Below, one piece after another: positions 28,772 through 37,486 of a stretch of DNA of 41,943 nt. Both the position numbers and the translations under genes were made by a program. The notes under the pieces are model-generated. The model was not told the DNA's origin. It did no database searches and saw only the letters and a list, made by a program, of their open reading frames with translations. The first letter of the stretch is position 1. Each line of letters starts with the position of its first letter. The stretch spans positions 1 to 41,943 of IMG/VR virus record IMGVR_UViG_3300045947_000108; one strand, given 5' to 3'. This stretch comes from a virus.

Positions 28772-28956
28772 CAGCGTTTCCTGGCCTTTGCAAAGGCAAT
28801 GGCCCGCAACATGGCCTCTTTCTTCTGGCCCTTCACCTTGGCCCGCGTAACCGTGCTCGGGATGTTGCGATGGACCTCAGCCATCGCCGCTTCTACCTTC
28901 GATCGACTAGGCTGACTGTGCCACTTGTGCCGTGGTGTATGCTTGGGTGCCTTCAT
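28771..28956 (-). CDS. Small basic late protein, unknown
   Basis: A 61-residue protein with high Lys/Arg content, starting at ATG 28956 in a TGATG overlap with the portal stop (a GTG one codon earlier is also possible). Its charge suggests nucleic-acid binding, but there is no domain to name. Confidence 0.5.
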   Translation of the reverse strand: MKAPKHTPRHKWHSQPSRSKVEAAMAEVHRNIPSTVTRAKVKGQKKEAMLRAIAFAKARKR

Positions 28957-30899
28957 CACATCCCCCCCGCAATCGGCATGCGTTCAAGGGGTAGGTTGCC
29001 CGGCACCTCAGCCGGCATCTGTGGGCCTGTAGGTCCGCCCCCCTGGCCGCCCTGCTGCTGCATCAGCATCTGCTGCATCTGGCCCATCTGGGCCTGTTCT
29101 TGTGGGTCTGGCTCCAGCGTGGATGGATCGAGGTTGACGCTCTTGAACAAGTGATTCCAGATTTTTGTCGGGCTGAACCGCTGCCAAAAGGTGAGGCCCA
29201 TGACCGGATTGCTCCCCGCCAGTTGCAAAATGGCCATGAGCTTCTGGAAGTCCCGCACCCGCGCCACAATAGCCGATAGGCCGGTGACTTTGAATTGACA
29301 CCCGGCGAGCTGGGCATAGCGCTCAGCCGGACTGAGCATGGCGAGGCGTAGTGCGGCCTCTTCCCCTACCGCGGACACGACTTCTTCGGCGTCGGCATCG
29401 TCCATAAATTGCATCAGGTTCGACCACATGAGCGAGAGGGCTTGGCTGATCGTCTTTTCGGTGTCTTTGATCATCCCATCGAAGAAGTTGGCACTCTGCG
29501 CTTGCGCTTCCACCACGGCGGTCGCCGTCGTCTCCCCGCCCGGCGTCTGCCCCATGCGGGTCGCATTCACCTGTGTGGCAATCTGAAACTCCTGATCGGT
29601 GAGCTGAAACGCGGCCAGCGCTTCTGGGGGCACTTTGCCCGTCACCACTTGCTCTACCACCTTGAGCCCCGGAGGCGCCCCCTCTTTGATAATCAGCGTA
29701 TCGCCCTGTACAATGCCGTCTTTCACCTGTCGTGGATCGTCCAGGTACTCGGGATAGAGTTGCTTGACGCCCCACACGGAGGCAATGCCACCGTCCAGGA
29801 TCAGGTTATACAGCTCGTCCTCAGCCTTATTCAGCGCGACGGCATGATCAAAGAGTGCCTTGTGCCACGTACTGAACGGCACACGCAGCAAGGGACGGCT
29901 AGCAAAGGGGTGCTTACCATGCCAATAGGGGTTGGGCTCTGGGGGCCTGATCAGATACTTGTTGTTGGCCATGGCGCACACGATATTCCGCTCGGCATAC
30001 CGCCCGCGGTCATCAAGAATATCCCCCCAGCACTCCAGAATGACCACCCGCCGCCGAAAGTCTGGCGGGGTCGCATCGGTTCGATCCCGCGAGCGCTCAT
30101 CGGTGCGATAGGCTCTATCCTCCTCCTGGGCGTAGTCCTCTTCGATCTGATCGACCATCGCCTGATCATACACGCCCGCGTCGGCCATGGCCTGCACCTG
30201 GGCCAAGTCGCGCTCAACTTCGTGCATCTCGTACAGCTTGCGCCCGGTGGGATCGGGTAAGTAGTCCTCGGGCGCCACGAGATCAATCACCGATTGCCAA
30301 TAGTCCACCTGCCGTCGCACGAGGTTCGACACAATCTGCGGTACCACGGAGCCATCAGGCGCGGGAATATACTGAATCCCCCGCTCGGCTCGAAACACGT
30401 CTTTAGTGGCGTCCCGCCCATGGATTTTAAGAATCATGAGGCTACCCATGAGCGCCACGGTGATGAGATCCGCCACGAGCGCCGGGAAATCCTCATCCGG
30501 CACACTGCCGCTCGTGCTGGCGCTATCTAGGGCATATTGCAGCAGCTTCCGGGCTTGCTCATCGCTCAAGACATCCTCTTGCTTCAGATCCGTGGTAAAC
30601 CAATCGCCAAAGTCGGTCAATCCCCGCTCGATGAAGGCGCTAATCTGCTCTTTGGCCATCGCCACTTTGGGCAAATGTTCGCGGCTCTGGCCCTTCTGCT
30701 TGTGCGACCAGTCCATGACCCCCATGAACATATCCCAATTGGCCTTGGTGAGGCGTAGGCGCTCTTCGCGGGCCTTGTGCGCCTCGGCTCGGTACGCTCG
30801 TAGCGCGGCCATGACGGTCAGGCTGGCGCCTTGAACCACCGGGGGGTCAGCGGTGATTGGTGTGGCTTGTGGGCCTGTTCGTCGTCTAGCTTGCGCCAT
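28956..30899 (-). CDS. Portal (head-tail connector) protein
   Basis: The 647-residue protein has the features of podovirus portals: an alpha/beta body, conserved segments such as PYWHGKHPFASRPLLRVP followed by HALNKAEDEL-type helix (DHAVALNKAEDELYNLIL), and IATQVNATRMGQTPGGETTA preceding a long crown/stem helix region. The end is Q/M/G-rich and flexible. Twelve copies would form the DNA channel and the docking site for terminase and adaptor. Gene order (terminase, portal, scaffold, capsid) agrees. Confidence 0.8.
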   Translation of the reverse strand: MAQARRRTGPQATPITADPPVVQGASLTVMAALRAYRAEAHKAREERLRLTKANWDMFMGVMDWSHKQKGQSREHLPKVAMAKEQISAFIERGLTDFGDWFTTDLKQEDVLSDEQARKLLQYALDSASTSGSVPDEDFPALVADLITVALMGSLMILKIHGRDATKDVFRAERGIQYIPAPDGSVVPQIVSNLVRRQVDYWQSVIDLVAPEDYLPDPTGRKLYEMHEVERDLAQVQAMADAGVYDQAMVDQIEEDYAQEEDRAYRTDERSRDRTDATPPDFRRRVVILECWGDILDDRGRYAERNIVCAMANNKYLIRPPEPNPYWHGKHPFASRPLLRVPFSTWHKALFDHAVALNKAEDELYNLILDGGIASVWGVKQLYPEYLDDPRQVKDGIVQGDTLIIKEGAPPGLKVVEQVVTGKVPPEALAAFQLTDQEFQIATQVNATRMGQTPGGETTATAVVEAQAQSANFFDGMIKDTEKTISQALSLMWSNLMQFMDDADAEEVVSAVGEEAALRLAMLSPAERYAQLAGCQFKVTGLSAIVARVRDFQKLMAILQLAGSNPVMGLTFWQRFSPTKIWNHLFKSVNLDPSTLEPDPQEQAQMGQMQQMLMQQQGGQGGGPTGPQMPAEVPGNLPLERMPIAGGM

Positions 30900-34941: not shown

Positions 34942-35132
34942 GGGCGAGGCTCCGGGAATGGCTTGGGGGTCTGTCGCACGGTCATGATGCCCTCATGCTC
35001 CTCAATCCATTGCATCCACCAGCGGCGAAGGGCTTCACGCCGGGCCAGCCAGGGATCATACTGCATCACGCGATAGAGCGCATTCAGCGCGGCGTCATCG
35101 ATGCCGAGGTGGGTGCAGGTCTCTCGCGTCAT
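34938..35132 (-). CDS. Small late protein after terminase, unknown
   Basis: A 64-residue, tryptophan-rich helical protein (REALRRWWMQWIEEHEGI) with a proline-rich end, overlapping the terminase stop by ATGA. No recognised family. Similar short helical proteins occur beside terminase genes. Confidence 0.5.
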   Translation of the reverse strand: MTRETCTHLGIDDAALNALYRVMQYDPWLARREALRRWWMQWIEEHEGIMTVRQTPKPFPEPRP

Positions 35133-37486
35133 CGTCCCGCCCCCACACCATACGCGGCGGATTTCACCGACACCCGCCCTTGCGGCGCACGCTGCTGTCG
35201 CACCGGGCGCTCGGTGATGCAGAGATAAGAGGCCCCGTCACTTAAATGGGTCAACTGGCTGTACGGGTCACGGTGATTGTAGGTCTTCTTGAGCCCACCA
35301 TGCGGGTCCATCAAGACTTGCTCAAAATCTCGAATCATCGCCACGCACTTGGGGTCGATCAGGATATGGCTCGCCCCCTGCGCGTCCTTAAAGGCGGCGT
35401 TCATGGCGTTCAGGCGATCAACCTCCAACGGATTCGCGGCGGGCACTTTCATCTTGACCGGGCTCGGATACCGCTGCAAGCGCGACAGGATCAGATCATA
35501 GCTGCTCCGCGGCTTCCCGGCTGTCGTATGGCTGCGGTTGCCTCCATTGGCATCGCCATAAATCCAGAGCTCATGCGGGTGCCGGGGGTAGCGCCGCTCA
35601 AACTCATCGAGCATGGCGTCGATGTTGCCCTCATCGAGCACGATCTCATCGTAGCAATACATCTGATCGGGATGCACCTGCCAAAGCGAGGTGCAGAACG
35701 GGCTGACGTTAAAGTCCCAGGCCCAGCACAAGGGCCGGTGTGGTGACAGCGGCGGAAGCTTGCGCACATGCACGGCGCGGGCAAAGTTCCCATACGCCAC
35801 GGCGCCTGCAATCCCCGGCAGAATCTCGCCATTCAGTCGAATGCGCCGCGATAGGGAGCCCAATGGGTAGCGGGATTCAAGCTGCTGAATCTCTTCGCCG
35901 CTCAGGTGGGGATTATCGTAGATGCTGGCCTGGAACAGCCCGACATCGGTCACACGGCCTTGAATGATCGGCTCGAGGATTTCCTGGTACACCCAGGAGA
36001 TGCTTTCGACATGCCCCTGGGGTGGGAGAATGGTGGCGGTGAAAAACTTGCGAAAGCGCCGTCCCGCGCCGATACGGATCAAGAGCTCGTCATAGTGCGG
36101 CTTCTTCGGCGGTTCATCGCCATGCAGCCAATCGATCGCCCCGCCTGCGACCTTAAGGGCGTCCTGCTCCCCCGACTTCCAGCCGATAAACGAGCCGTTG
36201 CGCAGCTTGAGGATCTGCGCCTCGACTTCCCACTTCGCAATCTCCCGCTCAGGGATAAAGGGCTCGGGCATCCCCGGCTTGAGGTAGCCATTGTCGAAGT
36301 ATCTCGGCTGGATAATGTCGCGGTTCGTATTGCTATCGAGGCCCAGCACCCAGCCCGCCGTAGCCTTGTCCCGTACGTCCATGCTCGTGCCATCAGGCAA
36401 ACGGCTGTACGCGGTGCCGACCGGCTCAGGAAGGCCCTGCCGGGCCAGCGTGGCACCACAGTACGCCCCGACGCTCGTGTTGTGGTGCAGCACGCCTGAT
36501 GCCCAATAGCAATGTGTCCCTTGTACCTCAAAGTCTACTATTGGACGTAAACCGATTTTCTGGTATGCTATTAGCCTACAACCACCCACCAGGAGGATCG
36601 GCCATGGCAATACGTGCCAATCGTTGCTACCGTACCACGCAAGACCTTGAATCTCGTGGTATTGCTGTTCTGTTGGAGCAGGGCTTGACCCGTCGTCAGG
36701 TCGCTGAATCTCTTCATTGCCACAAGTCGACGGTCGATAAGTGGTGTCAGAAGCATCAGTGGTCCACAGGGCGAACAGGGCCGAGAGCAGGTGAGGGTCA
36801 TCCCTCGTGGAATGGGGGAAGGCGCCTAGACAAGCACGGATACGTTCAGGTGTGGGCACCGTTACATCCACAATCTCACCAGGATGGCTATGTGTATGAG
36901 CACCGCTTGCTAGCAGAGGTCTTGCTATGGCGCTATCTTCGGACGGAGGAAGTTGTAGACCATATTGACGACTGGCCCTATCATAATTGGCCTGATAATC
37001 TTCGTCTCTTTCCGTCCAACGCGGATCACCTATCCTGGACAACAAGCTACCGACCGCAATCCACCCGGCGCGGGTCAATACCCGGTGCCTATACGTCGCC
37101 TCAAAAGCTTCCCCAGTGTCCAGATGCAGACGCAACGCTGGCTCAATGCTCCGCAGAAATACGGCAGAGGCTTGACTGGCACATCGAGTCACACCGTCCC
37201 AGGATTGAACATCGAAACTTGCCTCGCCGATCATTTCGGCAGGTAGGCGCGTGGCGGAACCCATTTCCACGGGTGTCCATGGGGTAAGACACTTGCCCAC
37301 ACGATTGGCGCCCACGAACCAATTTTCCCAGTGGCCCCCGTCCTCCGGGTGCAGCACGCTCTGGATAAAGGGCTGATGCACAATGAGCGGCTGCCACAGG
37401 CGCAACGGGTCGCTGGCCTGACGTTGGGCCAAGGTGAGACTGGCGATGCGCTGGAGGAGTTGCAGCTCTTCTGCCGTCGGCATCAA
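35129..37486 (-). CDS. terL: Terminase large subunit interrupted by an intein
   Basis: The 785-residue precursor would splice to a 514-residue packaging ATPase-nuclease. The Walker A motif GANRVGK-T is split after K65; residues 66-336 are the intein, and T337 is the +1 residue. After the intein come Walker B (IDWLHGDEPP), the WAWDFNVSP start of the nuclease with its first catalytic Asp, and IYGDANGG with a second. ATG pairs at the start overlap the upstream TGA. The protein cuts concatemers and drives DNA into the portal. The gene is functional only if splicing works. An HNH gene lies antisense within the intein part. Confidence 0.9.
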   Translation of the reverse strand: MMPTAEELQLLQRIASLTLAQRQASDPLRLWQPLIVHQPFIQSVLHPEDGGHWENWFVGANRVGKCLTPWTPVEMGSATRLPAEMIGEASFDVQSWDGVTRCASQASAVFLRSIEPALRLHLDTGEAFEATYRHRVLTRAGWIAVGSLLSRIGDPRWTERDEDYQANYDRASRQYGLQLPPSEDSAIARPLLASGAHTHSHPGEIVDVTVPTPERIRACLGAFPHSTRDDPHLLSALFALWTTDASDTTYRPSTCGNEEIQRPDDGSSPAPTEQQYHEIQGLAWYGSNDWHVLPWPILLVGGCRLIAYQKIGLRPIVDFEVQGTHCYWASGVLHHNTSVGAYCGATLARQGLPEPVGTAYSRLPDGTSMDVRDKATAGWVLGLDSNTNRDIIQPRYFDNGYLKPGMPEPFIPEREIAKWEVEAQILKLRNGSFIGWKSGEQDALKVAGGAIDWLHGDEPPKKPHYDELLIRIGAGRRFRKFFTATILPPQGHVESISWVYQEILEPIIQGRVTDVGLFQASIYDNPHLSGEEIQQLESRYPLGSLSRRIRLNGEILPGIAGAVAYGNFARAVHVRKLPPLSPHRPLCWAWDFNVSPFCTSLWQVHPDQMYCYDEIVLDEGNIDAMLDEFERRYPRHPHELWIYGDANGGNRSHTTAGKPRSSYDLILSRLQRYPSPVKMKVPAANPLEVDRLNAMNAAFKDAQGASHILIDPKCVAMIRDFEQVLMDPHGGLKKTYNHRDPYSQLTHLSDGASYLCITERPVRQQRAPQGRVSVKSAAYGVGAGR
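36541..36569 (+). promoter_or_regulatory. Extended -10 promoter of the antisense HNH gene C
   Basis: TTGGAC (36541-36546), 17-base spacer, TATGCT (36564-36569) with TGG directly before it. The promoter lies inside the coding sequence for the C-terminal splicing domain of the intein. Predicted start near 36576, leader 28 bases with AGGAGG (36591-36596). Confidence 0.7.
36604..37287 (+). CDS. HNH endonuclease C, antisense inside the terminase intein
   Basis: The 227-residue protein starts at ATG 36604 with AGGAGG seven bases upstream; the frame is open to 36499 but without such a site. A helix-turn-helix lies at about residues 28-48 (LTRRQVAESLHCHKSTVDKW). The HNH core follows: EHRLLAEVLL (H100), VDHIDD (H120), then N132 and NLRLFPSNADH. 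Beyond residue 150 the sequence is Arg/Pro-rich and looks like read-through opposite the intein N-terminal domain; the stop TAA lies one base from the intein boundary. It presumably cuts intein-free terminase genes, taking the place of an in-frame endonuclease. Confidence 0.85.
   Translation: MAIRANRCYRTTQDLESRGIAVLLEQGLTRRQVAESLHCHKSTVDKWCQKHQWSTGRTGPRAGEGHPSWNGGRRLDKHGYVQVWAPLHPQSHQDGYVYEHRLLAEVLLWRYLRTEEVVDHIDDWPYHNWPDNLRLFPSNADHLSWTTSYRPQSTRRGSIPGAYTSPQKLPQCPDADATLAQCSAEIRQRLDWHIESHRPRIEHRNLPRRSFRQVGAWRNPFPRVSMG

Follow-up and report, generated by a model that had tools for sequence, protein, structure and literature searches.

Terminase gene and its intein

The window, by which we mean the whole stretch of DNA analysed, is a virus record of 41.9 kb and contains a large terminase (TerL) frame that is open from 37486 to 35129 on the minus strand (785 aa). 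The frame was assigned to TerL with PHROG_2 (E 1e-7) and through tblastn matches to phage TerLs. It is split inside the Walker A motif (GANRVGK/TSVGA, where the slash marks the insertion point) by an intein of 271 aa encoded at 36479..37291 on the minus strand, and both junctions given in the original prediction, 36479 and 37291, proved exact. The N-extein (37292..37486, minus strand) has TTG at 37486 as its first in-frame start codon and ATG at 37483, and its C-terminal end reads VGANRVGK. The C-extein (35129..36478, minus strand, including the stop codon) resumes with TSVGAYC.

The intein contains all the residues of a class 1 intein: Cys1, T66xxH69, D253, His270-Asn271 and Thr at position +1. 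Among 44 diverse relatives, C1 and H69 are invariant, and D253, H270 and N271 are conserved. Its profile aligned with DnaB mini-inteins (E 6.8e-19), the N-terminal domain matches the intein part of PRK07773, and Pfam Intein_splicing matched 28 of the 44 relatives. In the AlphaFold2 model, two confident halves flank a mostly disordered middle. The N-terminal splicing domain (residues 1-88, 37028..37291, minus strand) contains blocks A and B with TxxH69 and has a pLDDT of ~96, and the C-terminal splicing domain (residues 222-271, 36479..36628, minus strand) contains blocks F and G and has a pLDDT of ~95. The top Foldseek matches of the model were DnaB/RecA mini-inteins, which places it in the HINT fold. 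The linker between both halves (residues 89-221, 36629..37027, minus strand) has a pLDDT below 50 across most of residues 91-201, and this disordered middle is the antisense reading of a helix-turn-helix (HTH) domain and most of an HNH core. No LAGLIDADG or HNH domain was found in the sense-strand intein frame, and no endonuclease family matched the polypeptide (P0002). The insertion is thus a bona fide intein, as its splicing blocks had suggested, and to judge from its residues it would be able to splice; it is not a canonical intein with an in-frame endonuclease.

An assembly error, a possibility raised when the locus was first described, is excluded because the identical element is present in five further IMG/VR contigs, so that six assemblies agree. 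The comparison of the window with two of the contigs (L013 and L014) revealed a mosaic boundary at 32.82-33.41 kb, with lower identity beyond it. Over 8.6 kb, 43 of the 45 SNPs cluster in this interval, at 32.87-33.41 kb, and none falls in the intein; being clustered outside the element, they are unusable as a test of selection on it.

The antisense HTH-HNH gene

On the plus strand, wholly within the intein, lies a gene for an HTH-HNH endonuclease of 227 aa (36604..37287, ATG start). The stop-free overlap had been put at about 145 codons, which was too short: it comprises the entire HNH gene, 228 codons. Its location inside TerL rules out a free-standing phage HNH gene between other genes. The HTH domain (residues 20-58, 36661..36777, plus strand) matches Pfam HTH_23 (E 1.1e-6) and is helical in the model, and the HNH core (residues 70-148, 36811..37047, plus strand) matches PHROG HNH families (E 1.7e-19), in agreement with the original prediction of both domains. 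The catalytic motif is intact, with D119-H120, N132 and H142 invariant in the 44 relatives, as are N128 and N139. The C-terminal tail (residues 149-227, 37048..37284, plus strand) lies antisense to the intein N-domain. In a model with a mean pLDDT of 84.9, this tail is confidently helical (residues 171-200, pLDDT ~92-97). Structural comparison of the HNH core with VIA-align retrieved I-HmuI (1u3e) in second rank (rmsd 3.8 over 81 residues, Z 5.3); it was the only HNH enzyme at this level, a supportive but modest likeness. Foldseek searches with the HNH model gave no match at E<0.001.

As a separate gene, the nuclease carries its own translation signals. The predicted Shine-Dalgarno sequence AGGAGG is present at 36591..36596 (plus strand), 7 nt ahead of the ATG. 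Matches of at least five bases were found in 18 of 46 relatives, compared with 2.2% of control start codons, and in most of the shorter elements the HNH start is located ~122-150 nt inside the 3' end of the intein. An extended -10 promoter had also been proposed. A candidate does exist (TGGTATGCTATTAG, 36561..36574, plus strand), but it is weak and probably better read as TGC-TATTAG (36566-36574), one along from TGG-TATGCT. The motif recurs in three of four close relatives: L038 has TGC-TATAAT and L039 TGC-TAGAAT at the same place, while L037 has lost the TG. This recurrence says little about a promoter, since these bases also code for conserved intein residues, and the extended -10 of the HNH gene was not among the promoters listed by a scan at standard stringency. 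Besides its own start codon and ribosome-binding sequence, the gene probably has a promoter of its own.

The length of the open frame was rejected as evidence, as the same genome contains an unrelated antisense ORF of 283 aa. This ORF (29409-30260, plus strand) lies inside a minus-strand gene of 647 aa (28956-30899) and shows no sign of being a gene. Chance antisense ORFs reach 283 aa in this genome, nearly all of them in other phases. What goes beyond chance is the homology of both the HNH protein and the intein, together with the comparative tests below.

Distribution of the element

Searches of phage genomes with the HNH protein (tblastn) retrieved eight Pectobacterium/Dickeya phages. In these, the match is antisense within an unnamed CDS of 754 aa that directly precedes the portal gene and is a TerL with a 288-aa intein at AGFG/TGKS. 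Pseudoalteromonas phage PHS3 has the same layout at GGAG/SGKS. With a profile built from five HNH proteins, 80 viral loci and 6 in genomes were detected, among them prophages of Enterobacter cloacae DSM 26481 and Acinetobacter. Carriers include phages of Pectobacterium and Pseudoalteromonas as well as prophages of Enterobacter and E. coli. Except for a weak match (L117), every locus found with this profile has an open antisense frame, which spans 547-1151 codons. A second profile scan added 49 loci of the same layout. Altogether, 149 distinct HNH segments were collected. Of these, 142 run antisense through an open frame with a mean length of 757 codons and share one phase; the remaining seven belong to free-standing HNH proteins or to weak outgroup members. 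HNH codon position 1 is opposite intein position 1 throughout, and the other two antisense phases are never open in the 142 embedded segments. Almost all complete relatives have two precise splice junctions, with the HNH gene contained entirely in the intein or, in a few relatives, extending beyond it by a few codons.

The HNH-profile search made no use of the other strand, and a second route was provided by the intein N-domain. All 80 loci retrieved this way contain an antisense HNH gene, no stop in the intein frame and no sense-frame HNH match, although the single search pattern falls in the part that the HNH tail covers in most members. Searches without a profile had a narrower reach: tblastn of the window intein against phages gave no match, a genome-contig scan with a single HNH protein gave none either (the loci came only with the profile), and single-sequence viral scans returned only near-identical contigs. 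At E 1e-15, the HNH family was detected in 9 of 50,697 phage records, all from Pectobacterium, Dickeya and Pseudoalteromonas, and in none of the actinophages of this collection. Among 295 genomes surveyed in the Enterobacter family, no carrier was found besides the one already known.

Nearly all host genes encode P-loop ATPases, mostly TerLs of several families. The others are SNF2-type helicases, an AAA_30/UvrD_C_2-type helicase and an AAA_24 ATPase (L099, L121, L123, L063 and L139), all interrupted at Walker A. Only the P-loop codons are conserved around the insertion sites. The elements of the window and L037 interrupt Walker A (GK/T and GK/S) three residues beyond the site occupied in their relative L038 (GGNR/SGK), whose HNH protein is 70% identical; closely related elements therefore use two sites in one loop.

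Two further observations concern individual loci. The linker of one relative (L161:3339-3357, minus strand) contains a single in-frame TAA, followed 15 nt later by a TTG in the same frame that could restart IntC and the C-extein. This locus is a candidate for a natural split intein with an antisense HNH gene across the break, or else for a sequencing error or a decaying copy. Signs of a second intein downstream were seen as a Hint_2 domain in L124 and a second HN/T or HN/C junction in L050 and L174.

Selection on both frames

Comparing substitution patterns on the two frames, as the original prediction had suggested, revealed selection in both. In 53 elements recoded synonymously, given each HNH protein and host codon usage, about 334 stops were expected in the intein frame and none was seen; for the window alone, P was ~0.03. 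The reverse test (~294 HNH-frame stops expected, 0 seen) is biased, as the loci were found via HNH.

In nine pairs of elements, differences in the C-extein fall at the third positions of TerL (0.466). Within the HNH core, it is the third position of HNH codons, equivalent to the second position in the intein frame, that differs (0.241, versus 0.041 at HNH second positions; p 1e-25), so that intein-frame second positions vary freely in the linker. At the intein N-terminal end, beyond the HNH stop codon, intein third positions differ 40 times and second positions never. Where the HNH tail and the intein N-domain overlap, all three positions are slow (0.054/0.067/0.095). The intein third-position rate of 0.095 in this overlap compares with 0.487 in the non-overlapped N-domain of short-HNH controls and 0.370 in the non-overlapped part of long-HNH pairs. 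Selection for the HNH protein is therefore seen over the linker, selection for the intein at its ends, and both in the overlap of tail and N-domain. Because the overlap is suppressed relative to the short-HNH control, we consider about 80 codons to be doubly constrained, whereas the linker and HNH core are combined with little conflict.

Empty sites and mobility

Uninterrupted terminases provide precise empty sites. The TerL of a prophage in E. coli ET729 reads AGFG-SGKTWVGCGG, and in its occupied counterparts in Enterobacter and E. coli MEI003 the element lies exactly between G and S. Escherichia phage KW1E_UTAR has the empty site AGFG-TGKS, and its sequence corresponding to the C-extein is 71% identical to that of the Pectobacterium phages. 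No close intein-free relative was found for the TerL of the window itself.

Inteins are also more alike than the DNA around them. Identity of the intein is 95.1% between L069 and L071, compared with 64/80% in the 150-nt flanks, 92.2% between L112 and L118, with flanks at 71/75%, and 70.7% between the window and L038, with flanks at ~53%. In the intein of L069/L071 outside the assumed HNH span, third positions differ in 5 of 111 codons versus 161 of 400 in the C-extein, though some of the 111 may be HNH-coding, the gene being longer in that group. Double constraint explains the excess of intein over flank identity in part, not in full. Given the precise empty sites and the inteins that are more alike than their flanks, the unit has moved, and it has been transferred among divergent host genes. 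These comparisons favour the suggestion made from the window alone that the antisense HNH protein is the probable homing enzyme.

A probable two-strand mobile element

We consider it very probable that the locus is a two-strand mobile element made of an intein and a separate antisense HTH-HNH homing endonuclease. On the TerL strand, the splicing domain (residues 1-88 and 222-271) would excise itself after translation and rejoin the Walker A loop, and by doing so would allow the host gene to survive. The antisense nuclease would cut the P-loop-coding DNA of intein-free alleles, and repair from an intein-bearing copy would insert the whole unit. The linker, as the antisense reading of the HTH domain and HNH core, would need only to stay free of stops, and the superimposition of the HNH tail on the intein N-domain would constrain both proteins. 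Beyond the window, the survey points to a distinct and widespread class, as seems likely, in which intein and homing endonuclease lie obligately on opposite strands in a fixed phase. Such a class would derive from one founding fusion and would have spread across phage terminases, helicases and AAA ATPases, its doubly coded segment of ~80 codons kept by selection on two unrelated folds.

Alternatively, the HNH gene might be an independent selfish gene that invaded an intein linker and homes for itself, with the intein as an independent safe harbour. Free-standing HNH relatives do occur in phages, and the constraints on HNH core and intein linker are largely separate. Yet phase and place are identical in all embedded copies, and none of the 80 relatives found through the intein lacks the HNH gene. 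The set distance of the HNH start from the intein end in most shorter elements and the use of P-loop sites throughout, in different gene families, also make such an invasion unlikely. A different objection applies to the view that the intein frame is a non-functional relic, or open merely by chance, with TerL inactive or restored in another way. TerL is essential for tailed phages, the splicing residues are nearly invariant in 44 diverse inteins, and the DnaB-like fold is modelled with confidence. Together with the third-position pattern at the intein ends and the absence of any of the 334 expected stops, this leaves a relic very improbable.

The nuclease could also serve the phage, for instance in packaging together with TerL, its mobility being secondary. 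Certain HNH proteins do help TerL to package DNA (cited in PMC11855218) and TerL is the host gene in most cases; however, the same unit interrupts SNF2-type helicases and AAA ATPases, close relatives with an intact TerL lack it and it is rare among phage records (only nine at the threshold above), so that we regard this role as quite unlikely. Gene callers disagree at these loci, as might be expected of an assembly or annotation artefact, but with six concordant assemblies and the same layout in complete phage and bacterial genomes its probability is negligible.

Implications and annotation

In the two-strand element, the putative mobility enzyme is no part of the spliced polypeptide and yet inseparable from it in the DNA. 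It offers a natural, many-times-sampled case of two unrelated folds encoded on both strands, useful for studying the evolution of overlapping genes. It raises the questions of how a nuclease gene facing late transcription would be expressed and whether its antisense placement guards it against loss, given that no relative without HNH was seen.

The annotation of these genes is also corrected, as current pipelines call the terminases incomplete, truncate them or miss the nuclease. PGAP describes the TerL of L118 (E. coli MEI003) as incomplete, with its N-terminus missing. In the PHS3 record (L032), HNH is annotated and TerL truncated, and in Pectobacterium records (e.g. L022, from Ymer) HNH was missed and TerL called hypothetical.

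Comparison with known systems

Antisense homing endonuclease genes occur in nuclear group I introns, where the nuclease is likewise encoded on the strand opposite the splicing element. That element is an RNA intron, so no second protein frame has to be maintained through the nuclease gene. In 'fractured genes', where a split intein is accompanied by a free-standing endonuclease gene, the nuclease is also kept apart from the splicing polypeptide. There, however, it lies between two genes, whereas here the host gene is unbroken and overlapped. I-HmuI resembles our protein in its HNH core fold (residues 63-151) and in having a DNA-binding side domain, but it is encoded in an intron, and here the HTH domain is N-terminal and the tail is additional.

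Inteins with an in-frame endonuclease, such as PI-MtuI, DnaB inteins and the dCTP deaminase intein of cyanophage CL131, which has an in-frame HNH_3 domain (PMC6293099), share with the present elements the splicing fold, the conserved active-site loop as insertion site, the disjunct distribution and a nuclease within the intein DNA. Their nuclease and splicing domains form a single polypeptide in one frame, whereas here the nuclease is a separate gene on the opposite strand and the linker contains no nuclease. Mobile inteins are a known kind of element. The antisense endonuclease architecture is apparently undescribed, in line with the original prediction, which knew of no well-described case: we found none in published full text, a coverage that excludes a preprint on actinobacteriophage inteins of 'non-canonical architecture' (10.1101/2025.01.02.630785), and priority is to that extent not fully certain.

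The nearest precedent is the methylase insertions of ShiLan and Pacc40, which contain a 'hidden' HNH read out of frame (Arsenault et al. 2025, PMC11855218). In both arrangements the insertion keeps the host frame open while HNH is read in another frame, and the HNH is of the same broad kind. The ShiLan HNH is on the same strand as its host gene, and the insertion has neither a splicing domain nor a detectable ribosome-binding site (PMC11855218). In contrast, the HNH gene described here is antisense, is preceded by a Shine-Dalgarno sequence and lies in an intein with a clear splicing domain, and its opposite-strand position holds in 142 of 142 embedded cases.
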